Part shown: positions 13,795 through 61,748 of the stretch, piece by piece
Layout of the letters: each line of letters begins with the position of its first letter
Numbering within the stretch: position 1 is the stretch's first letter
DNA from: Halichondria panicea
Lineage: Eukaryota > Porifera > Demospongiae > Suberitida > Halichondriidae
Reading direction: 5' to 3'
DNA: 64,000 nucleotides
NCBI RefSeq assembly: GCF_963675165.1
Contig: NC_087382.1
Span: 4,627,963-4,691,962, forward strand
Program-made: the position numbers and the translations under genes
The notes under the pieces: generated by a model
Told to the model about the DNA's origin: nothing
Databases searched by the model: none
What the model saw: only the letters and a program-made list of their open reading frames with translations

Positions 13795-16700
13795 ATGCTG
13801 TCTAGAAATATTCTCAACTGGTTAGTGCTGCTACTGACCCTAGCTACTGTTACCAGGAGTGAGCACTATCACATTGTGCCGGTGGATTCAACCAGCTTGT
13901 GTCATGACTATCGAAATGGAACCTGCTTTACTCTCGAGAAACTTCAAACAGACCTGTTATCTGGTGGAGACAATCTCACCTTGAGCTTTCTACCTGGAGA
14001 TCATGTGTTAACTGAGCAGTTATTGATTAGTAAATTTTCACATGTGCATATTACTGGCCAAAACGAATGTACAACTGTAGTCAGATTCAATAGCAAAGGT
14101 GCGATACATTTTGTTAATGTTACCAAATTGAGTATTGAATGCTTGGGTTTCATTGGAGCGAATGTTGGACCACCAAACTCACATCAAAGATTGATCGTTG
14201 ACGGTGCCCACGATGTCTATATCAACCACTGCTACTTTAATTACGCAAACAGCCACATAGTTAAGATTTTTAATACTCGAACTGCAACAATTGAGAGCAC
14301 TCTTTTTATGAACAACACTGGTCGGGCACTGCACGTTGAGGCTGATGATGTGTATATAACAAATAGCAAGTTTACTAGAAATGATGGAGGTGCAGTTTAT
14401 ACTAAATCAAACAACACACTGATCAACAACACAGAGTTCAACTACAACAGTGCCCTGAGTGGAGGAGCAGTAAAAATGTTGTCTGGTACTCTTGTGATCA
14501 CTTGGTGTAACTTCACAAGCAGCAAATCTTTAAAGCATGGTGGAGCAATTCATGTTAACTTAGGTAGTGTGTCTATCTCCAAATGTGAGCTGACAAACAA
14601 CTGTGCTGGCTATGGTGGAGCGATTTTTGTTAACTCAGGCAGTGTGTCTATCTCTGGCAGCACACTGAAAAACAACCGAGGTACCTATGGTGGAGCGATT
14701 TATACTAACTCTGGCAGTGTGTCTATCTCCAACAGTGTGTCCATCTCTGGCAGCACACTGACAAACAACAGTGCTAACGAGATAGGTGGAGCAATTTATT
14801 GCTCGGGAAGTAATATGTCCATCTCCAAATGTGAGCTGACAAACAACCGAGGTACCTATGGTGGAGCGATTTTTACTAACTCTGGCAGTGTATCCATCTC
14901 CAACAGTGTGTCTATTTCTGGCAGCATACTGACAAACAACAGTGCTAACAAGATAGGTGGAGCAATTTATTGCTCGGGAAGTAATATGTCCATCTCCAAA
15001 TGTGAGCTGACAAACAACCGAGGTACCAATGGTGGAGCGATTCATACTTTCTCTGGCAGTGTGTCTATCTCCAACAGTGTGTCCATCTCTGGCAGCACAC
15101 TGACAAACAACAGTGCTAACGAGAAGGGTGGAGCGATTCTCGTTCACTCGGGCAGTAGTATGTCCATCTCCAAATGTGAGCTGAAAAATAACGGAGGTTC
15201 CGATGGTGGAGCGATTTATGTTAACTCAAGCAGTGTGTCTATCTCTGGCAGCAGTGTGTCTATCTCTGGCAGCACACTGATAAACAACAGTGCTAACGAG
15301 ACAGGTGGAGCAATTTATTGCTCAGGAAGTAATATGTTCATCTCTAAATGTGAGCTGACAAACAACCGAGGTACCTATGGTGGAGTGATTTATGTTAACT
15401 CAGGCAGTGTGTCCATCTCTGGCAGCACACTGACAAACAACAGTGTTAACGAGACGGGTGGAGCAATTTATTGCTCAGGGAGTAATATGGTCATCTCTAA
15501 ATGTGAGCTGACAAACAATCGAGGTTCCAATGGTGGAGCGATTTATGTTAACTCAGGCAGTGTGTCCATCTCTGGCAGCATACTCACAAACAACAAAGCT
15601 AACTACTATGGTGGAGTGATTCATGTTTTCTCAGGCAGTGTGTCTATCTCTGACAACACACTGACAAACAACAGAGCTGACTTTGGTGGAGCAATTTATG
15701 TTATCTCAGGCAGTGCGTCTATCTCTGACAGCACACTGACAAACAACACTGCCAATATGAGTGGTGGAGCGTTTTATGGTAACTTAGGTAGTACTGTGTC
15801 CATCTCCCATAGTACGCTGAAAAACAACATAGCTTTCTACGGAGGAGGGATATTTCTGAAAGTATGTACGCTCTTTGTAAATGAGCCAATAGAGATCTAT
15901 CACAACACAGCACACCAAGATGGTGGAGGCATTTATGCTCATTCAAGTAAAGTTGAATTTCAATCTGCGTTACGAATTCCTGCAAATGTACAAAGTGAGA
16001 TTGCTGACAACATTGCTGAGAATGGTGGAGGTATTTATGCAGTAGCTACAACCATTAAACTAACTCATTCACACGTTAACATTGACTCAAACACAGCAAC
16101 TGCTAAAGGAGGTGGAGTGTTTCTACAGCAAAGTTCAAAACTTTACTTATTTAAGAAAGAGTACGAAGATGTGGCAGAAAAGCCTCTTGTCACATTAACA
16201 ATTAACAACAACTCGGCTCAGTACGGAGGGGGGATATTTGTAGCAGATAACACACAAAAGAGTGTGTGTGGAGGAGAGGTAACAGAAAATGGTGCCGTTT
16301 TTGAGGACTGCTTTATTCAAACAATGGATGTGCATATATTCAAGCTGAAATTAAACTACTTCAACACATTCATGACTAACAACACAGCTACCCAGTCAGG
16401 AGCAGACATCTATGGAGGTCTGTTGGACAGGTGTACAGCAAATAGAAATGCGGAATATCAAAATTCCTTAAATGGATTGGACTACATAAAAAAAACTGTA
16501 AAACCCTCCACTGAGTTATCAATCTCCTCTTCACCTGTTCAAGTAATTATTTGTAACTATTCACAAAGTGACTTTGTTCTTACTAGAAAAGGACACACAT
16601 TTAAAATCAGTGTTATGGCTGTTGACCAAGTTGGAAATCCAGTGAATGCAACAATTCAAAGTTCAGTTGTCAGTGAGAATGGAGTTGATCGCCTCAAAGA

Positions 16701-18624
16701 AGGACAGGCAGAACAAAGAGTTGGCAATCAGTGCACAGAATTAGAGTACAATGTATTCTCACAAGACAGCTTTGTTCAAGTGGAACTCTATGCCAAAGGT
16801 CCATGCAACAATTTGGGAATTTCAAAACAATTTATTAATATATATTTTCTACCCTGCACATGTCCTATTGGACTGAAACCAATTCTGTCCCAAATTGAGT
16901 GCAAGTGTGACTGTGATCCAGTCTTGCAACAAGGATATCAGATAGGAAACTGCTCAGAGAAAAATGAGACCATAAAGCTGGAAAGTAACATATGGATAAG
17001 AGTCGCAAATACCACCAACGGAACAGGTTATGTTGTTAGTAACTGTACTTTTGACTATTGTGTAGAAAAACCAGTCATTATCAGTCTAAGCAACCCTGAC
17101 GATCAGTGTGCTTTCAATCGAAGTGGTATCTTGTGTGGAGAATGTGAACCAGGACTGAGTCTTGTGTTAGCTACATCCAACTGTAAAGAATGCTCTAATC
17201 TTTACCTTCTTCTACTAATACCATTTGTGCTGGCAGGCATATTGCTTGTTGCTTTAATTCTGGTGCTCAACATCACTATAGCAATGGGAATGATTTATGG
17301 CCTTATTTTCTATGCGAACATACTAGCAGCTAATAAAGTCATTTTCTTGCCTAATTTATACAATTTTTTAACAATTTTTGTATCATGGTTGAATCTTGAC
17401 TTGGGAATCGAAATATGCTTTTATGATGGAATGAACTCTCAAGCAAAAGTACTTCTTCAACTTGTCTTTCCCGCTTACCTGTTTCTTCTTATGTTTCTTG
17501 TTATCATTTTAAGCAAGTATTTTGACTCATTTTCAAAGCTCCTCTCCAACAGGAACCCAGTTGCTGCCCTAGGAACACTTGTCCTTCTCTCTTATTCCAA
17601 ACTCTTACGGTTTATTATTGCTGCACTACGATACAGGGTCTTATATTATCCTGATAATACAAGTGATATAGTTTGGCTGTACGATGGCAATGTGCAATAC
17701 TTCACTCCTGATCACATCCCTCGGTTTGTTGCTGCTGCTATAATCCTCATTACTGGTGGATTGTTCACTGTATTGCTCTTCTTTGGACAATGGTTTTCAC
17801 GCTGTTCAAATATTATGATATGGACCAAGAATACGAAGTACAATGGCTTCATGGACGCATACCATGCTCCATTCACTCCCAAGCATCGCTACTGGGTGGG
17901 ACTGCTCCTCCTTGCACTGATTGCTCATAATATAGTAACTGCTATGGCTTCAAACACTTACCTCCCTATTCTATCATCTGGAGTTCTATCAGTTGGACTG
18001 ATTGGATGGAAACTATTGAATAATCGTTTGTATAAAAATACATTCTGTGGTTCCCTTGAAACTCTGTATCTACTCAATATTGCTACTCTAGCATTTGGCA
18101 CCTTCTATGTCAAAGATACCAAGAAAAATCAGTCAGCACTAGCCAATATTTCGATTGCTATATCATTCACCTTATTTGTCACAACACTCTGCTACCATTT
18201 TTACCAATTTGTACTCAAGAAGAGTAATACATGGCTGAAGATAGAGGACACCATAAGGAACTTACGAGCTGGTGCTGCAGACATGAGACTCCGACGAGCT
18301 AACAATGTCCGAGAAATGTATCAGCTGGTAGCTGAGGAAAACGATGAAGATCAATTACTCGAAGTAGTAGACGACTATGAACAAAGAGACGCCTTGAACC
18401 CACCTTACACTGATGAAGCTGTGGAAGAAGCTGACCCTGATCGTTACATCACTCCTCCCATTATCAGACCAGCCACGAGGCCCGAACAGTTGAGACTTTC
18501 CTACATGGATGAACTAGCCCCCCTCACCACAGAGGACTACAGACCAGCCCCTCCCCCTCCAAGAGTCAACCATTGTCCTGCTGTTACACACACAGAAATC
18601 GGCCCCATACGCAATGAAATATGA
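13795..18624 (+). CDS. Receptor gene A, type I beta-helix multi-TM protein, 1609 aa
   Basis: A signal peptide (residues 1-22, ending TVTRS) precedes a cap region to about 245 and 17 GGAI-type rungs from about 247 to 685. A further beta-helical stretch runs to about 900, with paired cysteines near 823 and 843. An Ig-like segment (VDQVGNPVNATI at 942) and a cysteine-rich module (CTCPIGLKP, ECKCDCDP, GILCGECEPG, NCKEC; about 1020-1135) follow. Ten hydrophobic stretches lie at about 1136-1475 with the motif LSNRNPVAALGTLVLLSYSK between the fourth and fifth. The tail (about 1478-1609) carries MYQLV, DRYITPP, YMDEL and PPPP. Many N-x-S/T sites suit a glycosylated surface protein. The rung block contains near-identical tandem pairs alternating YCSGSNMSISKCELTNN with SGSVSIS units, a sign of recent internal duplication. 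The start codon sits at the same place as in all paralogues. Function unknown; surface recognition or adhesion is inference. Confidence 0.9.
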   Translation: MLSRNILNWLVLLLTLATVTRSEHYHIVPVDSTSLCHDYRNGTCFTLEKLQTDLLSGGDNLTLSFLPGDHVLTEQLLISKFSHVHITGQNECTTVVRFNSKGAIHFVNVTKLSIECLGFIGANVGPPNSHQRLIVDGAHDVYINHCYFNYANSHIVKIFNTRTATIESTLFMNNTGRALHVEADDVYITNSKFTRNDGGAVYTKSNNTLINNTEFNYNSALSGGAVKMLSGTLVITWCNFTSSKSLKHGGAIHVNLGSVSISKCELTNNCAGYGGAIFVNSGSVSISGSTLKNNRGTYGGAIYTNSGSVSISNSVSISGSTLTNNSANEIGGAIYCSGSNMSISKCELTNNRGTYGGAIFTNSGSVSISNSVSISGSILTNNSANKIGGAIYCSGSNMSISKCELTNNRGTNGGAIHTFSGSVSISNSVSISGSTLTNNSANEKGGAILVHSGSSMSISKCELKNNGGSDGGAIYVNSSSVSISGSSVSISGSTLINNSANETGGAIYCSGSNMFISKCELTNNRGTYGGVIYVNSGSVSISGSTLTNNSVNETGGAIYCSGSNMVISKCELTNNRGSNGGAIYVNSGSVSISGSILTNNKANYYGGVIHVFSGSVSISDNTLTNNRADFGGAIYVISGSASISDSTLTNNTANMSGGAFYGNLGSTVSISHSTLKNNIAFYGGGIFLKVCTLFVNEPIEIYHNTAHQDGGGIYAHSSKVEFQSALRIPANVQSEIADNIAENGGGIYAVATTIKLTHSHVNIDSNTATAKGGGVFLQQSSKLYLFKKEYEDVAEKPLVTLTINNNSAQYGGGIFVADNTQKSVCGGEVTENGAVFEDCFIQTMDVHIFKLKLNYFNTFMTNNTATQSGADIYGGLLDRCTANRNAEYQNSLNGLDYIKKTVKPSTELSISSSPVQVIICNYSQSDFVLTRKGHTFKISVMAVDQVGNPVNATIQSSVVSENGVDRLKEGQAEQRVGNQCTELEYNVFSQDSFVQVELYAKGPCNNLGISKQFINIYFLPCTCPIGLKPILSQIECKCDCDPVLQQGYQIGNCSEKNETIKLESNIWIRVANTTNGTGYVVSNCTFDYCVEKPVIISLSNPDDQCAFNRSGILCGECEPGLSLVLATSNCKECSNLYLLLLIPFVLAGILLVALILVLNITIAMGMIYGLIFYANILAANKVIFLPNLYNFLTIFVSWLNLDLGIEICFYDGMNSQAKVLLQLVFPAYLFLLMFLVIILSKYFDSFSKLLSNRNPVAALGTLVLLSYSKLLRFIIAALRYRVLYYPDNTSDIVWLYDGNVQYFTPDHIPRFVAAAIILITGGLFTVLLFFGQWFSRCSNIMIWTKNTKYNGFMDAYHAPFTPKHRYWVGLLLLALIAHNIVTAMASNTYLPILSSGVLSVGLIGWKLLNNRLYKNTFCGSLETLYLLNIATLAFGTFYVKDTKKNQSALANISIAISFTLFVTTLCYHFYQFVLKKSNTWLKIEDTIRNLRAGAADMRLRRANNVREMYQLVAEENDEDQLLEVVDDYEQRDALNPPYTDEAVEEADPDRYITPPIIRPATRPEQLRLSYMDELAPLTTEDYRPAPPPPRVNHCPAVTHTEIGPIRNEI

Positions 18625-21647: not shown

Positions 21648-24600
21648 ATGCTGTTCAACTGGTTAGTGCTGCTACTGACCCTAGCTACTGTTACCAGGAG
21701 TGAGCACTATCACATTGTGCCAGTGGATTCAACTGACTTGTGTCATGACTACTATCGAAATGGAACTTGTTTCGCTCTCGAGCAGCTTGTTCAAACAAAC
21801 CTGTTATCTGATGGAGACAATCTCACCTTGAGCTTTCTACCTGGAGATCATGTATTAACTGAGCAGTTATTGATTCGTAACTTCTCACACGTGCAAATCA
21901 CTGGCCAGAACACAGGTACAACTGTAGTTGGTTTCCATAGCAATGCTACGATACTTTTTGTTAATAATACTGAATTGAGTATTGAAAACTTGGGTTTCGT
22001 TGGAGTGAATGTTGGACCACAAACCAATCGAAGTATGATTATTGACAATTCCCACAACGTTTATATTAAAGATTGCTACTTTATGGACTTTGTATTACTC
22101 AATCAGGTGGAAACCCACATAGTTAAGATTGCTAATACTCAAACTGCAACAATTGAGAGCACTCTCTTTATGAACAATACTGGTCAGGCACTGCACGTTG
22201 AGGCTGATGATGTGTACATAACAAATAGTGTGTTCACTAGAAACGATGGAGGTGCAGTTGACATTGATTTAAACAAGGTACTGTTCAGCAACAGCATAGA
22301 GTTATACTACAATAATTCTTGGAGCGGAGGAGCAGTAGAAGTGGTGTCTGGTACTCTTGTGATCACATCGAGTACCTTCATCGATAACAAATCTCAGTTT
22401 GGTGGAGCAATTTCTATTTTCTCAGGTAGTCTGTCCATCTCTGACAGTACACTGACTAACAACAGTGCCTATGGCAGTGGCGGAGCGATTAGTATTTACT
22501 CAGGTAGTGTGTTCATCTCTGACTGTACGCTGACAAACAACAGAGCTGACGGTGGTGGGGCGATTGGTGTTTTTACAGGCAATGTGTCCATCTCCAACAG
22601 CGAGCTGACAAACAACAGAGCTGACTCTGGTGGTGGTGGAGCGATTGGTGTTTCCACAGGCAGTGTGTCCATCTCCAACAGCGAGCTAACAAACAACAGA
22701 GCTGATTATGGTGGAGTGATTGGTGTGACCTCAGGTGATGTGTCCATCTCCCACAGCACTCTTTCAAACAACAGAGCTGTTGGTGGTGGAGCGATTGGTG
22801 TTTTGACAGGCAGTGTGTCCATCTCCAACAGCACACTGACAAACAACAGAGCTGGCTTTGATGGTGGTGGAGCGATTGGTGTGAACTCAGGAAGTGTGTC
22901 TGTTTTCCACAGCACTCTAACAAACAACAGAGCTAACTTTGGTGGAGCAATTTATGTTAGCGAAGGCGGTAGTGCGTCCATCTTCAACAGTAGATTGGCA
23001 AACAACAGAGGTACTAAAAATGGTGGTGGAGCGATTGGTGCGAACTCAGGCAATGTGTCTATCTCCCACAGCACTCTGACAAACAACAGAGCTGAATATG
23101 GTGGAGCGATTAGTGTTAGCGAAGACAGTACTTTGTCCATCTCCATCTGTGAGCTGACAAACAACAGTGCTGATAAGGGTGGAGCTATTGATGTTTGCCC
23201 AGGCAGTAATGTGTTCATTTCTGACAGCATGGTGACAAACAGCAGTTCCAATAGAGGAGTAATTTATGCTTCAAGATCCAACTTAATCCTTAACAACACT
23301 AACATTACCAATAACATGGTCAGTTTGAACATTAACCAGCAATCAAATGTGACATTCACAGGAATGAATATTGTCAGCAATAATAATGGCCCCATTAATG
23401 CTTCTAATAGTCGAGTCGACTTTAATGGACCTACAACACTCAGTAACAATCATGGTGTGTTTGGCGGAGCCATCAGCGCTGACCAGAGTCAAATATACAT
23501 TAACGCAGAAGGAGTAATCATCACCAACAACACGGCTACCTCTGGAGGAGGGATATTTCTGAGAGAGAGTACGCTCTTTGTAAATGAGCCAATAGAGATC
23601 AATCAGAACACAGCACATAATGGCGGAGGGATTTATGCTTATTCAAGCAGAGTTGAGTTCAAATCAGTGCAGATGGTAGGTGCTGATACTTATCCAAATA
23701 AACAGAGTGAGATCGCTCACAACATTGCTGAGAATGGTGGAGGTATTTATGCAGTATCTTCAAGTGTTGAACTTACTCAGTCATACGTCAACATTGACTC
23801 AAACACAGCAGCCACTAAAGGAGGTGGAGTGTATCTACAGCAAGGTTCAAAACTGTACATATATAAAAATGACCCTGACATTTCGGCAAAGGATCCATTG
23901 GTCAAGCTAATGATTAACAACAACTTGGCTCAGTACGGAGGGGGAATATTTGTGGCAGATGACACAGAGAGTGGTGCCTGCAGAGGAGGGGCCACAGAAA
24001 CTGATGCAACTCAAACCATTTTTGCTGATTGCTTCATTCAAACAATTAAATTGCATAGTGACTCCATCAAAATAAACCATATCAACACATTCATGACTAA
24101 CAACACGGCTACACAGTCAGGAGCAGACATCTTTGGAGGTTTGTTGGACAGGTGTACAGCAAGTCAAAATGCTGAATATAAATCTTCAAAAGGATTGGAC
24201 TACATAATTAAAACCGTAAGATCCACCATTGCATCGATCTCCTCTAGGCCTGTTCGATTGACGTTTTGTAACTATTCACAATATGACTATGTTTCTACAA
24301 AAAAAGGACATACATTTAAAATCAGTGTTATGGCTGTTGACCAAGTTGGAAATCCAGTGAATGCAACAATTCAAAGTTCAGTTGTCAGTGAGAGTGGAGT
24401 TAATCGTCTCAAAGAAGGACAGGCTGAACAAAGAGTTGGCAATCAGTGCACAGAATTAGAGTACAATGTATTCTCACAGGACAGCTCTGCTCAAGTGGAA
24501 CTCTATGCCAAAGGTCCATGCATCAATTTGGGAATTTCCAGACAACTTATTAATATTTCTTTTCTACCCTGCACATGCCCTGTCGGACTCAAGCCAATTC

Positions 24601-26333
24601 GGTCCCCAATTGAGTGCAAGTGTGACTGTGATCCAGTTTTGCAAACTGAAGAATATCAGATAACAAATTGTTTTGAGCAAAATGGAACCATAGCGCTGGA
24701 AAGAAATAACAACACATGGATAGAAGTCATAAATACTACCAACAGAACGGAGTATGTTGTTAGTAACTGTGCATTAGACTATTGCGTAGAAATTCCAATT
24801 AATATCAGTCTAAGTAACCGTGACGAACAGTGTGACTACAATCGAAGTGGTGTCTTGTGTGGAGAATGTGAACCAGGACTAAGTCTTGTGCTGGCTACGT
24901 CAAACTGTCAAGAATGCTCTAATCTTTACCTTCTTCTACTAATTCCATTTGTGCTGGCTGGCATATTGCTAGTTGCTTTAATTCTCGTGCTCAACATCAC
25001 TATAGCAACTGGAAATCTTCATGGCATCATTTTTTACGCAAATATAGTAGCTGCTAATAGAGCAATTTTCTTTCCTAGTTTAAACAACTTTTTAACAGTT
25101 TTCATATCATGGGTGAATCTTGACCTGGGAATCAACACGTGCTTTTATGATGGAATGAACTCTCAAGCAAAAGTACTCCTTCAACTTGCCTTTCCCACTT
25201 ATCTGTTTCTTCTAATACTTCTTATTATAGTTTTGAGCAAGTATTTTGACTCATTTGCAAAACTCCTCTCCAACAGGAACCCAGTTGCTGCCCTAGGCAC
25301 ACTCGTCCTACTGTCTTATTCTAAATTTTTACGATTTATCGTTGCTGCACTACAAAGCAGGGTCTTGGAATATTCTGATGGTTCAATCAAGACTGTTTGG
25401 TTGTTTGATGGCAACGTAACATACTTTACTTCCAAACACATTCCTCAGTTTGTTGCTGCTATTATAATCCTCATTGCTGGTGGATTGTTCACTGTAGTGC
25501 TCTTCTTTGGGCAATGGTTTCCACGCTGTTCCAAGGTTATGATATGGACCAAGAACACATATTACATTGGCTTCATGGACGCATACCATGCTCCATTCAC
25601 TCCCAAGCATCGCTACTGGGTGGGACTGCTCCTCTTTGCTCTGATTGCTCATAATCTAGTAGCTGCCATGGCTGCAGACACTTCTCTCCCTGTGCTATCA
25701 GCTGGGTGTATTGCATTCGAGCTGATATCATTGAACAACCGAGTGCACAAAAAGCAATTTAATGGATATCTAGAAACCTTCTTTCTGCTTAATCTTGGCA
25801 TTCTATCTATTGGCACTTCCTATGTTGTTGAAACACACCGACAGCAAGAAACACTGATCAATGTTTCAATGTCCATAGCTTTCATCCTTTTTGTGATAAT
25901 AATCAGCTACCATTTCCACCACTTTATACTAAAGAAGACCAAAATATGGCTTAAAATAAAGGAAGTCACAAAGAACTTGAGAACTGGTGCTGCAGACAAA
26001 AAGAATCAACAACCTAACAACGCCATGGCAATGCATCATCTTGCAGCCATTGATGACGATGAGCAACTTAAAGCTGAGCATATAGATCTAGACATGGTGG
26101 ACCCACCATCTTACACTGATGGAGCCGTGGAACAAGCTGACCCTGATCGTTACATCACTCCTCCCATCATCAGACCAGCCACGAGGCCGGACCAGTTGAG
26201 AGAGCCTGCCCTGGACGTACTAGCCCCCCTCACTACAGAGGACTACAGAAGACCAGCCCCTCCCCCTCCAAGAGTCAACCATCGTCCTGTTGTTACGCAC
26301 ACAGAAATCGGCCCCATACGCAATGAAGTGTGA
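21648..26333 (+). CDS. Receptor gene B, type II beta-helix multi-TM protein, 1561 aa
   Basis: The overall plan is that of gene A: signal peptide 1-19 (MLFNWLVLLLTLATVTRS), about 14 rungs between roughly 240 and 640, Ig-like segment near 898, cysteine-rich module from about 974, first membrane segment at about 1092, and a tail from about 1428. Type II marks are the second-half helix motif NNTNITNN…NGPTTLSNNHGVFGGAIS, and a last membrane third reading LISLNNRVHKKQFNGYLETF and SYHFHHFILKKTK. The front of the tail is unlike every paralogue (NAMAMHHLAAIDDDEQLKAE) and lacks MYQLV, but gives a true PPxY motif (DPPSYTD). The end of the tail (DPDRYITPP … PIRNEV) is the common one. Rungs use GGAIGV with NNRAD more than in A. 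Ligand and role are unknown. Confidence 0.9.
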   Translation: MLFNWLVLLLTLATVTRSEHYHIVPVDSTDLCHDYYRNGTCFALEQLVQTNLLSDGDNLTLSFLPGDHVLTEQLLIRNFSHVQITGQNTGTTVVGFHSNATILFVNNTELSIENLGFVGVNVGPQTNRSMIIDNSHNVYIKDCYFMDFVLLNQVETHIVKIANTQTATIESTLFMNNTGQALHVEADDVYITNSVFTRNDGGAVDIDLNKVLFSNSIELYYNNSWSGGAVEVVSGTLVITSSTFIDNKSQFGGAISIFSGSLSISDSTLTNNSAYGSGGAISIYSGSVFISDCTLTNNRADGGGAIGVFTGNVSISNSELTNNRADSGGGGAIGVSTGSVSISNSELTNNRADYGGVIGVTSGDVSISHSTLSNNRAVGGGAIGVLTGSVSISNSTLTNNRAGFDGGGAIGVNSGSVSVFHSTLTNNRANFGGAIYVSEGGSASIFNSRLANNRGTKNGGGAIGANSGNVSISHSTLTNNRAEYGGAISVSEDSTLSISICELTNNSADKGGAIDVCPGSNVFISDSMVTNSSSNRGVIYASRSNLILNNTNITNNMVSLNINQQSNVTFTGMNIVSNNNGPINASNSRVDFNGPTTLSNNHGVFGGAISADQSQIYINAEGVIITNNTATSGGGIFLRESTLFVNEPIEINQNTAHNGGGIYAYSSRVEFKSVQMVGADTYPNKQSEIAHNIAENGGGIYAVSSSVELTQSYVNIDSNTAATKGGGVYLQQGSKLYIYKNDPDISAKDPLVKLMINNNLAQYGGGIFVADDTESGACRGGATETDATQTIFADCFIQTIKLHSDSIKINHINTFMTNNTATQSGADIFGGLLDRCTASQNAEYKSSKGLDYIIKTVRSTIASISSRPVRLTFCNYSQYDYVSTKKGHTFKISVMAVDQVGNPVNATIQSSVVSESGVNRLKEGQAEQRVGNQCTELEYNVFSQDSSAQVELYAKGPCINLGISRQLINISFLPCTCPVGLKPIRSPIECKCDCDPVLQTEEYQITNCFEQNGTIALERNNNTWIEVINTTNRTEYVVSNCALDYCVEIPINISLSNRDEQCDYNRSGVLCGECEPGLSLVLATSNCQECSNLYLLLLIPFVLAGILLVALILVLNITIATGNLHGIIFYANIVAANRAIFFPSLNNFLTVFISWVNLDLGINTCFYDGMNSQAKVLLQLAFPTYLFLLILLIIVLSKYFDSFAKLLSNRNPVAALGTLVLLSYSKFLRFIVAALQSRVLEYSDGSIKTVWLFDGNVTYFTSKHIPQFVAAIIILIAGGLFTVVLFFGQWFPRCSKVMIWTKNTYYIGFMDAYHAPFTPKHRYWVGLLLFALIAHNLVAAMAADTSLPVLSAGCIAFELISLNNRVHKKQFNGYLETFFLLNLGILSIGTSYVVETHRQQETLINVSMSIAFILFVIIISYHFHHFILKKTKIWLKIKEVTKNLRTGAADKKNQQPNNAMAMHHLAAIDDDEQLKAEHIDLDMVDPPSYTDGAVEQADPDRYITPPIIRPATRPDQLREPALDVLAPLTTEDYRRPAPPPPRVNHRPVVTHTEIGPIRNEV

Positions 26334-28271: not shown

Positions 28272-28386
28272 GTGAGTTATGCGTAGATTATCTTACAGGG
28301 TATGCATGCGGTGTACACATGCAGTTATCTATACGAGCAGCATAACTATTATCTTTTTAACATGCCAACAATCATATGCACCTCAG
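28272..28386 (+). other. Inferred leader intron of gene C
   Basis: Donor AAACAA|GTGAGTTATG and acceptor GCACCTCAG enclose 115 bases and end two bases before the start codon. Confidence 0.7.
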
Positions 28387-28388
28387 AT

Positions 28389-45036: not shown

Positions 45037-48000
45037 ATGCTGTCTAGAAGGATTCTCAGCTGGGCAGTGCTGCTACTGACTCTAGCTACTGTTACCAGGA
45101 GTGAGCACTATCACATTGTCGATTCAACTGACTTGTGTCATGACTATCGAAATGGAACTTGTTTTACTCTCGAACAGCTTGTTCAAACGGACCTGTTATC
45201 TGGTGGAAACAATCTCACCTTGAGCTTTCTACCTGGAGATCATGTGTTAACAGAGCAGTTATTGATTCGTAACTTCTCACATGTGCAAATCACTGGCCAG
45301 AACAAAAGTGCAACTGTAGTTGAATTCAATGGCAATGGTGCGATACGTTTTGTTAGTATTACTGAATTGAGTATTGAACACTTGGGTTTTGTTGGAGCGA
45401 ATGTTGGACCACAAAACTCACATCAAGGATTTACCATTGACAGTGCCAACGATGTCTATATCAACAACTGCTACTTTATGGACTTTGATTTACTCAATCA
45501 GGCAGATACAGTAAAAATTGTTAATACTAAAACTACAATAATTGAGAGCACTCTCTTTATAAACAACACTGGTCGGGCACTGCACGTTGAGGCTGATGAT
45601 GTGTACATAACAAATAGTGTGTTCACTAGAAATGATGAAGGTGCATTTTACAGCGAGTCAAACAACGCACAGATCAACAACACAGAGTTCAACTACAACA
45701 GTGCATTGACTGGAGGAGCAGTAGAAGTGATATCTGGTACTGTAGCGATCACTTGGTGTAACTTTACAAATAACAAAGCTTCTCAGGATGGTGGAGCGTT
45801 TCATGTTGGCTCAGGCAGTAGTGTGAACATCTCCAATTGTGAGGTAACAAACAACAGTGCTGACGGGAATGGTGGAGCGATTTATGCTGGCTCAGGCAGT
45901 GTGTTTATCTCTGACAGCACACTGACAAACAACAGTGCTCATGTGAGTGGTGGAGCGATTGGTGTTTACTTTGGCAGTGTGATCATTTCCGATTGCACTC
46001 TGACAAACAGTAGTGCTAACAAGTATGGTGGAGCAATTAATGTTCACACAGCCAGTGTTTCCATCTTTGACAGCACACTAACAAACAACAGAGCTATAGA
46101 TAGGAGTGGTGGAGCAATTGATAATTACTCAGGCAATGTGTCCATCTCCGACAGCACACTAACAAACAATACTGCTAACAGGGATGGTGGAGCGATTGAT
46201 AATCATCACTCAGGCAATGTATCCATCTCTAACAGTGAGCTGACAAACAACAGTGCTGACTATGAAGGTGGAGCAATTGAAAATTACTCAGGCAATGTGT
46301 CTATCTTTGACAGTATCCTGGCAAATAACAGTGCTAAAATGGGTGGTGGAGCGATTGGTGGTAACTCAGGCACTATCACCACCATCTCCGACAGCACGCT
46401 GACAAACAACAACGCTGGCTCAAATGGTGGAGCAATCGATAATTACTCAGGCAGTATGTCCATCTCTTACAGCACACTAACAAACAATACTGCTAACAGG
46501 AGTGGTGGAGCAATTGATAATCATCACTCAGGCAATGTATCCATCTCTAACAGTGAGCTGACAAATAACAGTGCTAAAAGGGGTGGTGGAGCAATTGGTG
46601 GTAACTCAGGCACTATCACCACCATCTCCGACAGCACACTGGCTAACAACAGAGCTAACTTTGGTGGAGCGATTTATGTTACCTCAGGCAATGTGTTCAT
46701 CTTCGACAGCATGCTGGAAAAAAACAGTGCTCACTGGAATGGTGGAGCGATTCACATCATATACTCAAGCAGGGTAACAATTTCAGATAGTACACTGACA
46801 AAAAACACAGCTGGTAGTTGGGGTGGAGCTATTAATGTGGACTCAAGCACTGTGTCTATCTCCGACAGCACGCTGACAAACAACAACGCTGGCTCAAATG
46901 GTGGAGCGATCGATAATTACTCAGGCAGTATGTTCATCTCCTACAGCACATTTACAAACAACAGTGCTGACAATGGTGGAGCAATTGGTGTTACCTCAAG
47001 CAGTATGACCATCTCCTATAGCTCACTGACAAACAACAGAGCTGACGCAAATGGTGGAGCAATTCATGGTGACCTTGGCAGTACTGTGTACATCTCCGAC
47101 TGTACGCTCAAAAGCAACGGAGCTACTTCTGGAGGAGGAATATTTCTGAGTGTGGGTACACTAATAGTAAATGAGCCAATAAAGATCAATTTTAATGCAG
47201 CAAAACAGGATGGTGGAGGAATTTATGCTCATTCAAGTAGAGTTGAATTTCAATATTCTTCCAATATTAAACGGACTGAGATTGTTGGCAACATTGCTTT
47301 GAATGGTGGAGGTGTTTATGCAGTAGCTACAACCATTAAACTAACTCAATCACACATTAACATTGACTCAAACACAGCAACTGCTAAAGGAGGTGGAGTG
47401 TTTCTGCGGCAAAGTTCAAGACTGTACTTATTAAAAAATTACTATGAAGATGTGGCACAAAAGCCATTGGTCTCATTACTGATCAACAGCAATTTGGCTC
47501 GGTACGGAGGGGGAATATTTGTTGCGGATGACACGGAGAGTGGTGCCTGCAGAGCAGGGGCCACAGAAACTGGTGCTATTCAAACTATTTTTGAGGATTG
47601 CTTTATTCAAACAATCAACTTGAATGAACCCAAATTGAAAATAAACCACTTCAACACATTCATGACTAACAACATAGCTACTCGATCAGGAGCAGACATC
47701 TATGGAGGTCTGTTGGACAGGTGTACAGCAAGTCAAAATGCTGAATATCACACTTCTTCAAATGGATTAGACTACATAAATAAAACTGTAAAACCCTCCA
47801 TCGAATTATCAATATCTTCTTCGCCTGTTCAAGTACTTTTTTGTAACTATTCAAATGACTATGTTTTTACAAGAAAAGGACACAAGTATAAAATCAGTGT
47901 TATGGCTGTTGACCAAGTTAGAAATCCAATTAATGCCACAATTATCAGTTCTGTTATCACTACGAGTGGAGTTGGTCGTCTCAAAGAAGGACAGACTGAA

Positions 48001-52077: not shown

Positions 52078-52193
52078 GTGAGTTATGCAGTAGATCTAAG
52101 CTTACAGGATAATATGCATTCAGTGTACACATGCAGTTATCTATAGAAGCAGAATAACTATTATTTTAACATGTCAACAATCATGCACCTCAG
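52078..52193 (+). other. Inferred leader intron of gene F
   Basis: Donor AAACAA|GTGAGTTATG and acceptor GCACCTCAG enclose 116 bases, very similar in sequence to the intron of gene C. Confidence 0.7.
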
Positions 52194-52197
52194 ATAT

Positions 52198-55100
52198 ATG
52201 CAGTCTAAGAGTATTCTCAGCTGGTTAGTGCTACTGACCCTAGCTACTGTTACCAGGAGTGAGCACTATCACATTGTGCCAGTGGATTCAACCGACTTGT
52301 GTGATGAATATCGAAATGGAACTTGTTTCGCTCTCGAGCAGCTTGTTCAAACAGACCTATTATCCGCTGGTGGAGACAATCTCACCTTGAGCTTTCTACC
52401 TGGAGATCATGTTTTAACTGAGCAGTTATTGATTCGTAACGTTAGACATGTGCATTTAACTGGCCAGAACACAAGTACAACTGCAGTTGGATTCCATGGT
52501 ACAATGCGTTTTGATAGTACTGCTAAATTAAATATTGAACACTTGGGTTTTGTTGGAGCGAATGTTGGACCACAAAACTTTGATCAAAGTTTATTCATTG
52601 ATGGTGCCCATGATATCTATATCAACAACTGCTACTTTATGGACTTCAATCAGGTAGAAACCCACATACTTAAGATTGTTAATGCTCAAACTGCGACAAT
52701 TGAGAGCACTTTCTTTATGAACAACACTGGTTGGGCACTGCAAGTTGAGGCTGAGGATGTGTACATAACAGATAGTGAGTTCACTAGAAACGATGGAGGT
52801 GCAGTTGACATTGAATCAAACAACTTTCTGATCAACAACACAGAGTTCAACTACAACAGTGCTGAGAGTGGAGGAGCAGTAAAAGTGGTATCTGGTACTG
52901 TAGTGATCACTTGGTGTAACTTCACAAATAACAAAGCTTCTTGGAGTGGTGGAGCGATTTATGCTGCTGGCTCAGGCAGTGTGTCCATCTTCGACAGTAG
53001 GCTGACAAACAACAGAGCTAGCTATGGTGGAGTGATTTATGTTGACTCAGGCAGTGTTTCTATCTCTGACAGTGAGCTGACAAATAATAGAGCTGACAGA
53101 GGGTGCGGTGGAGCGATTAATGCTGGCTCAGGCAGTAGTGTGTCTATCTCCGACAGTACGCTGACAAACAACAGAGCTCTCTATGGTGGAGCAATTTATG
53201 TTACTTTATGTAGTTTGTTTATCTCTAACAGTGAGCTGACAATTAATAGGGCTGGCTGGAGTGGTGGAGCAATTGCTGCCTCAGGCAGTTTTTTGTCCAT
53301 CTCTGACAATACGCTGACAAACAACACAGCTAACTATGGTGGAGCGATTTATGTTGAATCAAGCAGTGTGTCTATCTCTGACAGTGGGCTGACAAACAAC
53401 AGAGCCGACGGGACTGGTGGAGCGATTAATCTACTCACAGGCCGTGTATCCATTTCTGACAGCACATTGACAAACAACAGAGCTGAAAATGCTGGAGTGA
53501 TTAGTGTTACGTTAGGCAATGTGTCCATCTCCGACAGTACTCTCACAAACAACAGAGCTGATGAGGTTGGATCCGGAGCAATTGACGTTTTGGAATTCTC
53601 CACCTTGATCATACACAACACTGTCATCAGTAATAACATAGATAGTTTGAACATTCAACAATCAAATGTGATATTCACGGGAATAAATATTGTCAGAAAT
53701 AACAATGGTCCCATCAATGCTTTCAATAGTCGAATGGAGTTTAATGGACCTACAACACTCAGTAACAATCGTGGTGTGTTTGGCGGAGCCATAAACGCTG
53801 ACCAGAGTCACATATACATTAACATAAATAATGGAATGATCATCAGCAACAACACGGCTACCTACGGAGGAGGGATATTTCTGAGAGAGAGTACAATCTT
53901 TGTAAATGAGACAATACAGATCTATCAAAACACAGCACACCAGGACGGTGGAGGCATTTATGCTTATTCTAGCAGAGTTGAGTTCCAATCATTAGTGGTA
54001 AGTGATTTTCCTCCAAATAAAGAAAGTGAGATTGCTCACAACATTGCTGAGAATGGTGGAGGTATTTATGCAGTAGCTACTACTATTGAACTAAGTCGAT
54101 CACACGTTAACATCGACTCAAACACAGCAACCACTAGTGGAGGTGGAGTGTACCTACAGCAAAGTTCAAAACTGTACCTATTTAAAAAGAAACCTGAATA
54201 TCAATCATATTATGTCAGGTTAGTGATTAACAACAACTCGGCCGAGTATGGAGGAGGGATATTTGTGGCAGATGACACCGAGAGTGGTGCCTGCAGAGTA
54301 GGGGCCACAAAAAATGATGCTACTAAAATCATTTTTGCGGACTGCTTCATTCAAACAATTAGATTACATTCGGCCAAGAGCATTAATCAAAACTATTTCA
54401 ATACATTCATGACTAATAACACAGCTACCCAGTCAGGAGCAGACATCTACGGAGGTCTGTTGGACAGGTGTATAGCAAGTAAAAACGCTGAATATAACAT
54501 TTCTTTGAATGGATTGGACTATATTAGAAATACCATAGAAGTCTCCACCGAACCACCATCAATCTCTTCTAGGCCTGTTCGAGTAGTTGTTTGTAACAAT
54601 TCACATATTTCTACAAGAAAGGGACACGCATTTAAGATCCGAGTTATGGCTGTTGACGAAGTTGGAAATGCAGTGAATGCCAAAATTCATAGTTCAGTTG
54701 TCAGTGAGAGTGGAGTTGGTCGTCTCAAAGAAGGACAGGCTGAACAAACAGTTGGCAATCAGTGCACAGAATTAGAGTACAATGTGTTCTCAAACGAAAG
54801 CTCCACTCAGATGGAACTCTATGCCGAGGGTCCATGCATCAATTTGGGAATTTCAAGAAAACTTGTTAATATATATTTTCAACCCTGCACATGCCCTATT
54901 GGACTCAAGCCGATTATGTCCCATATTGAGTGCAAGTGTGACTGTGATCCAGACTTGCAAACAGAAGAATATCAGATAACAAATTGTTCTGAGGAGAATG
55001 AAACCATAAAGCTGGAAAGTAATAACAACATATGGATAGAATTCATAAATACTACCAAAAAAACAGGGTATGTTGTTAGTAACTGTGCATTTGACTATTG

Positions 55101-56670
55101 TGTAGAAAAACCAGTTCACATCAGTCTAAGCAACCCTGACGAACAGTGTGCATACAATCGAAGTGGTGTCTTGTGTGGAGAATGTGAACCAGGACTGAGT
55201 CTTGTACTGGCTACGTCAAACTGTAAAGAATGCTCTAATCTTTACCTTCTTTTACTAATCCCATTTGCATTGGCAGGTATATTGCTAGTTGCTTTAATTC
55301 TCGTGCTCAACATCACTATAGCAACTGGAAACATTCATGGCCTTATTTTTTACGCCAACATAGTAGCTGCTAATAGAGCAATTTTCTCTCCTAGTTTAAA
55401 CAACTTTTTAACCATTTTTGTATCATGGGTGAATCTTGACTTAGGAATCGACACGTGCTTTTACGATGAAATGAACTCTCAAGCAAAAGCGCTTCTTCAA
55501 CTTATCTTTCCCGCTTACTTGTTTTTTCTAATCTTCTTAATAATCATTTTGAGCAAGTACTTTGACTCATTTGCAAAGCTCCTCTCCAACAGGAACCCAG
55601 TTGCTGCCCTAGGAACACTCGTCCTACTCTCTTATTCAAAATTCTTACGTTTCATTGTTGCTGCGCTACAATTCACATACTTACATTATCCTGATGGTTC
55701 AATCAAGATTGTTTGGTTGTTTGATGGTAATGTGCAATACTTCACTCCCACTCACATCCCTCAGTTTGTTGCTGCTATCATAATCCTCATTGCTGGTGGA
55801 TTGTTCACTGTACTGCTTTTTTTTGGACAATGGCTTCCGCAGTGTTCAAAGGTTATGATATGGACTAAGAACACAAAATACATTGGCTTCATGGATGCAT
55901 ACCATGCTCCATTCACTCCCAAGCATCGCTATTGGGTGGGACTGCTCCTGTTTGCTCTGATTGCTCATAATCTAGTAGCTGCCATGGCTACAGACACTTC
56001 TCTCCCTGTACTATCTGCTGGGTGTATTGCATTCGGACTAATATCATTGAACAACCTAGTGTACAAAAAGCAATTTAATAAATATCTAGAAACATTTTTT
56101 CTGCTTAATCTCGGCATTCTATCTATTAGCACTTCCTATGTTGTTGAAACACACCAACAGCAAGAAACACTGACCATTGTTTCAATGTCTATAGCTTTCA
56201 TCCTTTTTGTGACAATCATCAGCTACCATTTCCACCATTTCGTACTAAAGAAGACCAAAGTATGGCTCAAGATAAAGGAAGTTGTTAAGGATATCGAAAC
56301 AAAATTACGAGCAGGTGTTGCAGACAAGAGACTCCGACAAGCTAACAATGGTCGGGTAATGTATCAGCTGGTAGTCGATGAAAACGATGACGATGAATTA
56401 CTTGAAGTATTAGACGATTATGAACAAAGAGACCCCGTAGACCCACCTTACACGAATGGAGCTGCTGTGGAAAAAGCTGACCCTGATCGCTACATAACTC
56501 CTCCCAATATCATACTAGCCACGAGGCCGGATCAGCTGAGACTATCCTACATGGATGAACTATCCCCCCTCACCACAGAGGACTACAGACCAGCCCCTCC
56601 CCCTCTAAGAGTCAATCTTCGTTCTATTGTTACACACACAGAAATCGACCTCATACACAATCAAGTATGA
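52198..56670 (+). CDS. Receptor gene F, type II body with type I tail, 1490 aa
   Basis: Upstream in-frame ATGs at 52171 and 52183 lie in the inferred intron; the ATG at 52198 gives MQSKSILSWLVLLTLATVTR. About nine rungs are followed by the type II second half (NGPTTLSNNRGVFGGAINAD). The Ig-like segment is divergent (VDEVGNAVNAKI). The cysteine-rich module starts at about 896 and the membrane region at about 1014 with the type II ending (LISLNNLVYKKQFNKYLETF, SYHFHHFVLKKTKVW). From about 1355 the tail is type I-like (MYQLVVDENDDDELLEVLDD, DPPYTNG) and unlike gene B, with ITPPNIILATRPD and a final LIHNQV. This mosaic suggests gene conversion or unequal crossing-over. Sugar-acceptor and cysteine positions are kept, so the gene looks functional. 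Confidence 0.88.
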   Translation: MQSKSILSWLVLLTLATVTRSEHYHIVPVDSTDLCDEYRNGTCFALEQLVQTDLLSAGGDNLTLSFLPGDHVLTEQLLIRNVRHVHLTGQNTSTTAVGFHGTMRFDSTAKLNIEHLGFVGANVGPQNFDQSLFIDGAHDIYINNCYFMDFNQVETHILKIVNAQTATIESTFFMNNTGWALQVEAEDVYITDSEFTRNDGGAVDIESNNFLINNTEFNYNSAESGGAVKVVSGTVVITWCNFTNNKASWSGGAIYAAGSGSVSIFDSRLTNNRASYGGVIYVDSGSVSISDSELTNNRADRGCGGAINAGSGSSVSISDSTLTNNRALYGGAIYVTLCSLFISNSELTINRAGWSGGAIAASGSFLSISDNTLTNNTANYGGAIYVESSSVSISDSGLTNNRADGTGGAINLLTGRVSISDSTLTNNRAENAGVISVTLGNVSISDSTLTNNRADEVGSGAIDVLEFSTLIIHNTVISNNIDSLNIQQSNVIFTGINIVRNNNGPINAFNSRMEFNGPTTLSNNRGVFGGAINADQSHIYININNGMIISNNTATYGGGIFLRESTIFVNETIQIYQNTAHQDGGGIYAYSSRVEFQSLVVSDFPPNKESEIAHNIAENGGGIYAVATTIELSRSHVNIDSNTATTSGGGVYLQQSSKLYLFKKKPEYQSYYVRLVINNNSAEYGGGIFVADDTESGACRVGATKNDATKIIFADCFIQTIRLHSAKSINQNYFNTFMTNNTATQSGADIYGGLLDRCIASKNAEYNISLNGLDYIRNTIEVSTEPPSISSRPVRVVVCNNSHISTRKGHAFKIRVMAVDEVGNAVNAKIHSSVVSESGVGRLKEGQAEQTVGNQCTELEYNVFSNESSTQMELYAEGPCINLGISRKLVNIYFQPCTCPIGLKPIMSHIECKCDCDPDLQTEEYQITNCSEENETIKLESNNNIWIEFINTTKKTGYVVSNCAFDYCVEKPVHISLSNPDEQCAYNRSGVLCGECEPGLSLVLATSNCKECSNLYLLLLIPFALAGILLVALILVLNITIATGNIHGLIFYANIVAANRAIFSPSLNNFLTIFVSWVNLDLGIDTCFYDEMNSQAKALLQLIFPAYLFFLIFLIIILSKYFDSFAKLLSNRNPVAALGTLVLLSYSKFLRFIVAALQFTYLHYPDGSIKIVWLFDGNVQYFTPTHIPQFVAAIIILIAGGLFTVLLFFGQWLPQCSKVMIWTKNTKYIGFMDAYHAPFTPKHRYWVGLLLFALIAHNLVAAMATDTSLPVLSAGCIAFGLISLNNLVYKKQFNKYLETFFLLNLGILSISTSYVVETHQQQETLTIVSMSIAFILFVTIISYHFHHFVLKKTKVWLKIKEVVKDIETKLRAGVADKRLRQANNGRVMYQLVVDENDDDELLEVLDDYEQRDPVDPPYTNGAAVEKADPDRYITPPNIILATRPDQLRLSYMDELSPLTTEDYRPAPPPLRVNLRSIVTHTEIDLIHNQV

Positions 56671-57159: not shown

Positions 57160-60100
57160 TCACTGCATAATTTTTTTTATGGGGCCGATATCCGTATGTG
57201 TAACGGGACGACGGTTAGGATTTGGAGGGGGAGGGGCTGATCTTCTGTAGTCCTCTGTGGTGAGGGGGGCTAGTTCATCCATGTAGGATAGTCTCAGCTG
57301 ATCTGGCCTCGTGGCTGGTCTGATGATGGGAGGAGTGATGTAACGATCAGGGTCAGCTTTTTCCATGGCTCCATCAGTGTAAGGAGGGTCTCTTTGTTCA
57401 TAGTCGTCTACTGCTTCAAGTAATTCATCGTCATTGTTTTCATCGGCTACCAGCTGATACATTTGTCGGGCGTTGTTAGCTCGTCGGAGTCTCATGTCTG
57501 CAGCACCAGCTCCTAAGTTCCTTATAGTGTCCTCTATCTTTAGCCATGTATTACTCTTCTTGAGTACGAATTGGTAAAAGTGATAACAAAGTGTTGTGAC
57601 AAATAGGGTGAATGATATTGCAATCGAAGTATTGGCTAGTGCTGACTGATCTTTCTTGGTATCTTTGACATAGAAGGTGCCAAATGATAGAGTAGCAATA
57701 TTGAGCAGATATAGAGTTTCGAAGGAACCACAGAATGTATTTTTATACAAACGATTATTCAAGAGTTTCAATCCAATCAGTCCCACTGATAGAACTCCAG
57801 ATGATAGAATAGGGAGGTAAGTGTCTGGAGCCATAGCAGTTACTAGATTGTGAGCAATCAGAGCAAAGAGGAGCAGCCCCACCCAGTAGCGATGTTTTGG
57901 AGTGAATGGAGCATGGTATGTGTCCATGAAGCCAATGTACTTTGTATTTTTGGTCCATTTCATAACTTTGGAACAGCGAGGAAACCATTGTCCAAAGAAG
58001 AGCACTACAGTGAACAATCCACCAGCAATGAGGATTATAGCAGCAGCAACAAACCGAGGGATGTGATCAGGAGTGAAGTATTGCACATTACCATCGTACA
58101 GCCAAACTATATCACTTGTATTATCAGGATAATCCAAAACCCTGTGTTGCAGTGCAGCAATGATAAACCGTAAGAGTTTGGAATAAGAAAGTAGGACGAG
58201 TGTGCCTAGGGCAGCAACTGGGTTCCTGTTGGAGAGGAGTTTTGCAAATAAGTTAAAGTACTTGCTCAAAACAATAATAAGAAACACAAGAAGAAACAAG
58301 TAAGCGGGAAAGACAAGTTGAAGGAGCACTTTTGCTTGAGAGTTCATTCCATCATAAAAACATATCTCGATTCCCAAGTCAAGATTCAACCATGATATGA
58401 AAACCGTTAAAAAGTTATTTAAACTAGGAAAGAAAGTCACTCTATTAGCTGCTAGTATATTAGTATAGAAAATAAGGCCATGAATATTTCCCGTTGCTAT
58501 AGTGATATTTAGCGTGAGAATTAAAGCAACTAGCAATATGCCAGCCAGCGCAAATGGTATTAGTAGAAGAAGGTAAAGATTAGAGCATTCTCTACATTTT
58601 GACGTGGCCAACACAAGACTGAGTCCTGGTTTACATTCTCCACACAAGACACCACTTCGATTGTAGGCACACTGTTTGTCAGGGTTGCTTAGACTGATGT
58701 TGACTGGTTTTTGTACACAATAGTCAAATATACAGTTGCTAACAACATACCCTGTTCCGTTGGTGGTATTCGCGACTTCTATCCATATGTTACTTTCTAG
58801 TTTTATGGTCTCATTTTCCTCAGAACAATTTTTTATCTGATAATCTTGTTGCAATATTTGATCACATTCGCACTTGCATTCAATATCCGACTGAATTGGC
58901 TTGAGCCCAATAGGGCATGTGCAGGGTAGAAAAGAAATATTAATAAGTTGTCTTGAAATTCCCAAATTGATGCATGGGCCTTTGGCATACAGTTCCACCT
59001 GAGCAGAGTTGTCTTTTGAGAATACATTGTACTCTAACTCTGTGCACTGATTGACAACTGTTTGTTCAGCCTGTCCTTCTTTGAGACGACCAACTCCACT
59101 CGTAGTGATAACAGAACTGATAATTGTGGCATTCATTGGATTTTCCACTTGGTCAACAGCCTTAACACTAATTTTATATGTGTGTCCTTTTCTTATAGAA
59201 ATATAGTCACTTTGTGAATAGCTACAAACAATTACTTCAACAGGCGAAGAGGAGATTGATAACTTAGTGGAGGATTTTACAGTTTTGTTTATGTAGTCCA
59301 ATCCATCTGAAGAATTGTGATATTCAGCATTTTGACTTGCTGTACACCTGTCCAACACACCACCGTAGATGTCTGATCCTGACTGGGTAGCCGTGTTGTT
59401 AGTCATGAATGTGTTGAAGTGGTTTATTATTGGTCCAGGTTCCATCAAGCTGATTGTTTGAATAAAACAGTCCTCAAAAATGGTTTGAATAACACCAGTT
59501 TCTGTGACCCTTCCTCTGCAGGCACTACTCTCTGTGTCATCCGCCACAAATATTCCCCCTCCGTACTGAGCCGAGTTGTTGTTAATTAGTAATGATACAT
59601 ATGTAATCTGAGACTGATTCTTTTCTGCAACATATTCATACTCTTTTTTAAAAATGTACAGTCTTGAACTTTGGCGCAGAAACAATCCACCTCCTTTCGC
59701 GGATGCTGTGTTTGAGTCAATGTTAACGTGTGATCGAGTTAGTTTAATGTATGTAACTACTGCATAAATACCTCCACCATTCTCAGCAATGTTTTCAACA
59801 ATCTCACTTCGTATATTTGATGGAATCGGTAAAGCAGATTCAAATTCAACTCTACTTGAATGAGCATAAATTCCTCCACCATCCTGTTGTGCTGTATTGA
59901 GATTGATCTTTATTGGCTCATTTACTAGGAGTGTACTCACTCTCAGAAATATTCCTCCTCCAGAGGTAGCTCTGTTGTTTTTGAGCGTACAGTCAGAGAT
60001 GGACACGGTGCTACCAAGGTCACAATGGATCGATCCACCATTTGCGACAGCACGATTGTTTGTCATTGTGCTATCTGAGATAGACACACTGCTTGAGTAA

Positions 60101-61748
60101 ACACCAATCGCTCCACCACTCCCGTCAGCATTGTTGTTTGTCAGTGTGCTATTGAAGATAGACACACTGCCTGAGTAGGTATCAATCGCTCCACCATTAC
60201 CGTCAGCACAGTTGTTTGTCAATTTGCTGTCGGAAATAAAGACACTGCCTGAGTCAATATTAATCCCTCCACCCCAACTGCCAGCTCTGTTGTTTGTCAG
60301 GTTGCTACTGGAGACGGTCACGTTGCCTGATTGCACACCAATTGCTCCACCACTCTCATCAGCTCTATTGTTTGTCAGTGTGCTGTCGTAGATGGACATA
60401 TTACCTGACTTAACACCAATCGCTCACCACCAACACTTATAGCAGTGTTGTTTGTCAGGGTGCTGCCGAAGATAGACAAACTGCCCAAGTAATTATTAAT
60501 AGCTCCACCACTCCAGTCAGCACTGTTGTTTGTCAGTGTGCTGTCATTGATAAGCAAACTACCTGAGTAATTATTAATCGCTCCACCAACTCTGTTCGCT
60601 TCGTTATTTTTCAGTGTGCTGTCGGAGATGGTCACACTGCCTGAATAATTATCAATAGCTCCACCATTCCAGTTAACACAGTTATTTGTCAGTGTGCTGT
60701 AGGAGATAGAAACGTTGCCCGAGTCATCAATTGCAATCGCTCCACCATATTTATCAGCTGTGTTGTTTGTCAAGGTGCTATTGAAGATAGACACACTTCC
60801 TGCGTAAACACTAATCGCTCCACCACTTCCGTCGGCACTGTTATTTGTCAGTGTGCTGTCGGAGATGGACACACTACTTGAGTTAACAAAAATTGCTCCA
60901 CCATTCCAGCCAGCACTGTTGTTTGTCAGCTCACAATTGGAAATGTTCACACTACTGCCTGAGCCAACATAAATTGCTCCACCATACCACCGATAAGCAT
61001 TGTTATTTGTGAAGCTACACCAAGTGATCACTACAGTACCAGATACCACTTTTAATGCTCCTTCGTTCCTAGCACTGTTGTAGTTGAACTCTGTGTTGTT
61101 GATCAGTGAGTTGTTTGATTCAATGTCAACTGCACCTCCACCATTTCTAGTGAACACATTATTTGTTATGTACACATCCTCAGCCTCAATGTGCAGTACC
61201 TGACGAGTGTTGTTCGTAAAGAGATTTCTCTCCATTGTTGCAGTTTGAGTTTTAGCAATATTTATTATCTTCTCTGGCTGACTGAGTAGTTTAAAGTCCA
61301 TAAAGTAGCAGTCGTTGATATAGACATCATGGGCACTGTCAATGGTTAATCCTTGATGTGACTTTTGTGGTCCAAAATTCGCTCCAATGAAACCAAAACG
61401 TTCAATGCTTAATTTGGTAATACTAACCAAACGTATTGCACCATTGCTATGGAATCTGACTACAGTTGTATTTTCCGTCAGGCCAGTGAGATATACATGT
61501 GAGAAGTTAAGAATCAATAACTGCTCAGTTAACACATGATCTCCAGGTAGAAAGCTCAAGGTGAGATTGTCTCCACCAGGTAACAGGTCTGTTTGAACAA
61601 GCTGCTCGAGAGTAAAACAAGTTCCATTTCGATAGTCATTACACAAGTCAGTTGAATCCACTGGCACAATGTGATAGTGCTCACTCCTGGTAACAGTAGC
61701 TAGGGTCAGTAGGAGCACTAACCAGCTGAGAATACTTCTAGACAGCAT
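57160..61748 (-). pseudogene. Receptor gene G, type I, interrupted by one frameshift
   Basis: It begins MLSRSILSWLVLLLTLATVT at 61748 and ends at 57160. About 14 rungs, the Ig-like segment, the cysteine-rich module, the ten hydrophobic segments and the tail (MYQLVADEN, DRYITPP, YMDELAPLTTEDY, PPPP) are all present and type I. Near 60425 one base of the invariant GGTGGAGCGATT rung sequence is missing (GGTGGTGAGCGATT), so the reading frame shifts in the middle of the rung block. No other break is seen on either side, so this is either a very young pseudogene, a segregating null allele, or a sequencing error. The total is 4589 bases, one short of a whole number of codons. The protein end differs from the others (DIGPIKKIMQ). 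Confidence 0.85.

Follow-up and report, generated by a model that had tools for sequence, protein, structure and literature searches.

The 64,000-nucleotide stretch of Halichondria panicea DNA analysed here (the window; positions 4627963-4691962 of contig NC_087382.1, C6 in this study, in a genome of 131.5 Mb on 39 contigs) carries an array of long genes, whose products join a predicted beta-helix rod of PMP-type repeats to a cysteine-rich module, a conserved membrane unit with ten hydrophobic segments and a conserved tail. We favour, at a probability of roughly 55 %, the explanation that these proteins are surface receptors, in which a beta-helix of variable length standing on a fixed membrane unit would provide each copy with its own ligand and all copies with a shared output.

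Six uninterrupted open reading frames (ORFs) follow one another in the same direction on the + strand between 13795 and 56670, and with lengths of 1429-1624 amino acids (aa) their occurrence by chance is excluded. These are gene 1 (13795..18624, 1609 aa), gene 2 (21648..26333, 1561 aa), gene 3 (28302..33122, 1606 aa from the first ATG, with a signal-like segment beginning about 30 residues in), gene 4 (36754..41043, 1429 aa, the copy used for structure modelling), gene 5 (45037..49911, 1624 aa) and gene 6 (52171..56670, 1499 aa). Gene 7 (57160..61748) is an inverted copy on the - strand, present as two overlapping frames (57160-60399 and 60375-61829) with a frameshift in the helix-coding part near 60375-60430, and hence is not intact as assembled; position 61748, which the original prediction took as the end of this gene, is an ATG within its second frame. 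The predicted tandem array of seven paralogues is confirmed, with six intact + strand ORFs at the stated positions and a seventh copy that is frameshifted. The membrane-and-tail parts of genes 2-7 are 71-90 % identical to that of gene 1, and a degenerate fragment of a gene-2-like beta-helix lies at 6598..7118 (+), seen as two adjoining protein-level matches to gene 2 with 93 % and 77 % identity. Upstream DNA is also alike: the 5' flank of gene 4 (35919..36753, +) is 84 % identical to that of gene 5 (44184-45023) across 882 aligned columns. Several shorter upstream stretches are also common to genes 3 and 6, so that the duplicated unit takes in flanking sequence. Regarding the array as one seven-member family proved too narrow a frame, as it runs on past the window with four further copies within 35 kb and belongs to a genome-wide superfamily described below.

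The ectodomain was the part for which the fold could be modelled. In gene 4, an N-cap and a beta-helix with GGAI rungs occupy residues 27-634 (36832..38655, +), and the structure model, of high confidence over residues ~60-540, is a right-handed parallel beta-helix resembling solved right-handed beta-helices; the fold that had been proposed from the repeat consensus was thus recovered by structure prediction, and no other fold took its place. All six ORFs match the PF02415 Chlam_PMP repeat at 53.2-104.4 bits (cut-off 20.6). The earlier estimate of 10-18 GGAI-type rungs was low, since GG[AVG][IVFLY] motifs number 15-23 per ORF in genes 1-6 (8 and 10 in the two pieces of gene 7), at a median spacing of 26 or 27 residues. 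Among all examined ORFs whose helix is uncut by the end of the locus, motif counts range from 6 (L016) to 29 (L030), mostly 13-23, with median spacings of 26-29 residues except in L016 (38), and many more copies thereby bear out the proposal that a repeat ectodomain of variable length stands on a membrane and tail unit that is conserved. One further locus, L031 (C6:4703000-4710000), contains 43 GG-type rung motifs despite its cut start, in an open frame of more than 2000 aa, and its helix is roughly double the usual length. The N-terminus, read by eye, appears to carry a signal peptide. Ahead of the membrane lies a beta-rich, putatively immunoglobulin (Ig)-like segment (38959..39273, + in gene 4), for which one low-confidence model gave seven strands in the first 80 residues and another eight; no Pfam match in this segment, ahead of CTCP, was listed for the window ORFs at E-values up to 1.

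The cysteine-rich module CTCP ... LCGEC ... CKEC follows (gene 4, 39274..39612, +). The motifs CTCP, CKCDCD and LCGEC are conserved as originally described, with CKCECD in gene 7. All 17 members of the A4 set align over the LCGEC...CKEC part with DUF7630 (PF24633), a model of 45 residues whose function is unknown, while every other Pfam family was hit by three members at most. In the window ORFs this match (residues 922-953 in gene 4) stays below the cut-off of 27 bits, at 16.8-19.6 bits in 6 of 6; four superfamily places passed it with 27.6-27.9 bits in a six-frame search, although one of these, the divergent member L009, scored 23.8 as a scanned protein. The membrane unit (39604..40608, + in gene 4, with approximate boundaries) lies outside the reach of DUF7630. 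Hydropathy averaged over 17 family members gave ten hydrophobic segments, in agreement with the original count of about ten, as did an alignment of ten superfamily members. The second and third segments (around GLIFYANI and W-NLDLGIETCFYDG) are strongly conserved and moderately hydrophobic, appearing as two short helices in a low-confidence model, and polar residues within the membrane segments are invariant, being kept between types that are only about one-third identical.

With ten segments instead of seven, the unit does not belong, as judged by its sequence, to the rhodopsin-like or seven-helix receptor class; no 7tm family was among the Pfam matches of the six ORFs (E-values up to 1) or in the list of 21 Pfam families for the 17 A4 members (E-values up to 10). 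If the ectodomain is outside, ten crossings would leave the tail and the basic loops (+2.4, +4.9 and +1.8) outside as well, whereas they would come to lie inside if, of the two marginal segments that follow the first helix, one did not cross. On the positive-inside rule we therefore favour a topology of nine crossings and one marginal segment. Searching the whole of gene 1 against PDB returned three weak matches of the tail to Mpp10 (E-values 0.34-0.44), which were taken as chance.

The C-terminal tail, which in gene 4 (40609..41040, +) contains PDQLRLPYMDELAPLT and a proline-rich end, is conserved among the copies on sequence comparison, as had been suggested. Of the 36 window-type ORFs examined, all but L012, L023 and L033 contain the motif QLR[EL]xx[LIM]D (33 ORFs). 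DY and a proline-rich run follow the motif, and we take the run to resemble an SH3 ligand. The last membrane segments of genes 2 and 6 have a second form in common, set apart by 69 split-supporting sites in two consecutive 80-codon bins, and the family therefore has at least two types of this end.

Searches of the whole genome show how far the window represents a larger set. The membrane part of gene 1 finds at least 101 places with 61-100 % identity on ten contigs, mostly C6, all at E-values below 1e-130; this is a lower bound, with 101 of 433 candidates scored. By hand count, 57 of the 101 lie in open frames of at least 1300 aa and 44 in shorter ones, and nine have internal stops in the matched stretch. 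L009 finds 76 places, five of them window-type, with frames of at least 1000 aa in 67 and a stop-free match in 75, and a second divergent member, L053, finds 72. Merging the three lists by hand gave at least 179 different places (101 + 71 + 7), where one place need not equal one whole gene. For comparison, the same genome has 22 matches to the rhodopsin-like receptor family, 19 of them above the cut-off; this yardstick is rough, because genes with introns are broken up in a search of that kind. Four aligned ORFs of the sister type are 31-35 % identical to gene 4 and retain the membrane segments, most cysteines and a C-terminal motif of related sequence. A genome-wide probe with PF02415 gave no matches at E-values up to 0.001, and with a 19-residue model too short for six-frame searching it is uninformative on copy number. 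A pattern search for relatives gave 55 matches in viral contigs and 54 in genomes of bacteria and archaea, but not one of these was confirmed; the one eukaryotic genome covered was the window's own. On C6, between 1.27 and 1.48 Mb, neighbouring sister-type and window-type members recur as pairs (for example 1388783+/1391311-, 1443759+/1446429- and 1478937+/1481468-), which suggests segmental duplication of a two-gene unit.

The membrane part is under purifying selection, with ratios of non-synonymous to synonymous substitution rates (dN/dS) of 0.16-0.40 in 21 pairs. In the helix, where outward and inward rung positions were set beforehand by strand alternation, 51 disjoint pairs of similar 26-residue rungs gave a dN/dS of 0.92 for outward versus 0.42 for inward positions, and the positions at which non-synonymous changes most outnumber synonymous ones include 5 (31:3), 25 (49:8) and 26 (37:6); values of 0.42-0.75 from helix columns are unreliable because rungs do not correspond one-to-one. 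Permutation tests of the pairwise homoplasy index (PHI) rejected a single history for the N-terminal part (p 0.0045 and 0.0125 with two window sizes) and for the C-terminal part (p 0.0005, the floor at 2000 permutations). It is these PHI tests that support recombination, approximately unbiased (AU) tests of particular mosaics not being decisive. For 29 of the 91 window rungs the nearest DNA neighbour lies in the same gene, versus 16 % expected, a pattern consistent with duplication within genes and with exchange between genes alike.

How such a receptor might work can be outlined. A signal peptide would take the rod-like beta-helix of very variable length out of the cell, making the N-terminus extracellular, and the beta-rich segment with the probably disulphide-rich collar would link the rod to the membrane bundle. 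The tail would then be cytoplasmic, and its LR-(E/L)-x-x-(L/M/I)-D core and proline-rich, tyrosine-containing end may be offered to adaptor proteins. The helix appears to differ among copies in its length and in its outward face while the membrane unit is constant; therefore, the copies would bind different ligands, with glycans, microbial surfaces or the surfaces of neighbouring cells as candidates, and feed one shared output. New copies would arise by tandem duplication including upstream DNA, swap segments by recombination and often decay. As far as sequence analysis can speak to it, a role in recognition would be in keeping with the many copies, some of them broken, with the recombination and with the faster change at outward rung positions.

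Several observations weigh against this explanation. The membrane-unit profiles A4 and A5 had no match in PDB (hmmsearch, E-values up to 10), and the structure model of the unit (predicted local distance difference test, pLDDT, 34.6; predicted template modelling score, pTM, 0.22) is too poor for a fold search, so that the label of receptor rests on architecture. At rung positions chosen beforehand dN/dS does not exceed 1; higher values of 0.98-1.4 at variable positions were set aside, as picking positions by their variability is partly circular. The conflict between the N-terminal and membrane trees is weak (AU p 0.059), and for the tail the grouping of the membrane tree is not rejected (AU p 0.285). 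Of three sister-type members scanned whole, one (L054) matched Pfam Beta_helix above the cut-off, L052 fell below it and L053 had no match, and the helix is therefore less certain in the sister type.

A different use of the same architecture would be in adhesion or as matrix anchors, the beta-helix acting as a stiff spacer or as an adhesin that binds glycans, with bundle and tail serving only to anchor and recycle the protein without signalling. Fold comparison shows that the ectodomain fold is common to adhesins and polysaccharide-binding proteins, and trichomonad Pmp proteins, which raise adhesion and bear endocytic tail motifs, offer a precedent for adhesion (PMC6701047). However, these trichomonad proteins manage with a single span, and a ten-segment unit kept across such divergent types with invariant polar residues exceeds the needs of an anchor; we consider this explanation unlikely. 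We give still less credence to ligand-gated or mechanically gated channels, with the bundle as pore and the rod as tether or sensor. Segments two and three could speculatively form a re-entrant pore element, judging from a poor model, but ion-channel families are absent among the Pfam matches listed and sequence matches in PDB are none.

It could also be argued that the array is mostly decayed and repeat-rich, maintained by duplication without a function for the organism, as one of the seven window copies is frameshifted, a fragment lies nearby and 44 of the 101 places found with gene 1 are in frames below 1300 aa. Yet the selection on the membrane part, the long open frames at the other 57 places and the frames of at least 1000 aa at 67 of the 76 places of the L009 search (five of the 76 being window-type) speak against this, and we regard it as very improbable.

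Which surface receptors allow sponge-like animals to distinguish self from non-self, and symbionts from food, is an old open question. Extending the receptor reading, the array may be one branch of an undescribed superfamily of beta-helix, nine-span receptors (at least 179 places, against 22 rhodopsin-like matches), forming the main variable surface-recognition repertoire of the animal, for self/non-self or for symbionts and microbes, diversified by rung number and recombination and bearing a new membrane signalling unit; this larger claim is tentative and we would not expect it to hold in full. Among the titles listed in literature searches, many of them on chlamydial and trichomonad Pmps, none describes this family, and the term DUF7630 gave no papers; sponge databases may well contain similar proteins that are uncharacterised and unannotated. 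If true, the reading provides a concrete, testable gene set, with more than 100 copies that combine a variable outer coil, a fixed unclassified membrane unit and a conserved tail.

Some other features deserve mention. A methylmalonyl-CoA epimerase gene with introns (TIGR03081, 188 bits; exons by eye) lies at about 7800-8890 of the window, near the single-ORF receptor-like genes, and its introns mark the DNA as eukaryotic. A fold-back element of about 3.8 kb occupies 435-4246, with outer arms (435-661 and 4020-4246) that are 95 % complementary and both lead into long short-period repeats; its right arm holds a short near-perfect palindrome, resembling a miniature inverted-repeat transposable element by eye, at about 3760-3880. 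The locus L043 is a cathepsin-L-like ORF with serine at the catalytic-cysteine position (SSWAFS), as in silicatein. Among solved chains, cathepsins come closest to it and silicatein alpha ranks lower, so that the ORF is not diagnostic of a sponge.

Among known systems, the lineage-expanded mosaic recognition families of animals, such as cnidarian Alr and sponge NLR and SRCR, are alike in forming tandem clusters, in carrying a variable ectodomain on a membrane or signalling part that is conserved, and in showing recombination and many broken copies. The present proteins differ in having a PMP-type beta-helix as ectodomain and a multi-pass membrane unit that is unclassified. The membrane unit had no sequence match to TRP or polycystin-like channels in the Pfam listings or in PDB, and its model is too weak for comparison of the fold. 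Chlamydial Pmp proteins (PF02415 repeats; PMC10715098) have like the present ones rungs of ~26-27 residues, paired LxxN/FxxN and GGA[IVL] motifs and a beta-helix of variable length. In place of the middle domain and autotransporter barrel of bacterial Pmps, a beta-rich segment, a cysteine-rich module and a helical membrane unit of ten segments are predicted here; no Pmp middle or autotransporter family was among the Pfam matches of the six ORFs at E-values up to 1, and on these sequence grounds the proteins fall outside the chlamydial autotransporters. Trichomonad Pmps (PMC6701047) are likewise membrane proteins of a eukaryote, built on the same repeats, present in expanded numbers and equipped with tails that bear motifs. 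They differ in having one membrane span near the C-terminus, against ten hydrophobic segments here, which places the present proteins outside that group; they are reported to be mainly internal in localisation, and the section consulted describes no cysteine-rich collar such as is present here. The PMP-type repeat, the beta-helix fold and expanded recognition families as a kind are known; apparently new is their combination with this membrane unit, for which the sequence searches of Pfam and PDB matched no named family. If the receptor reading is right, the PMP-type beta-helix, best known from chlamydial adhesins, would serve as a recognition scaffold in an animal.
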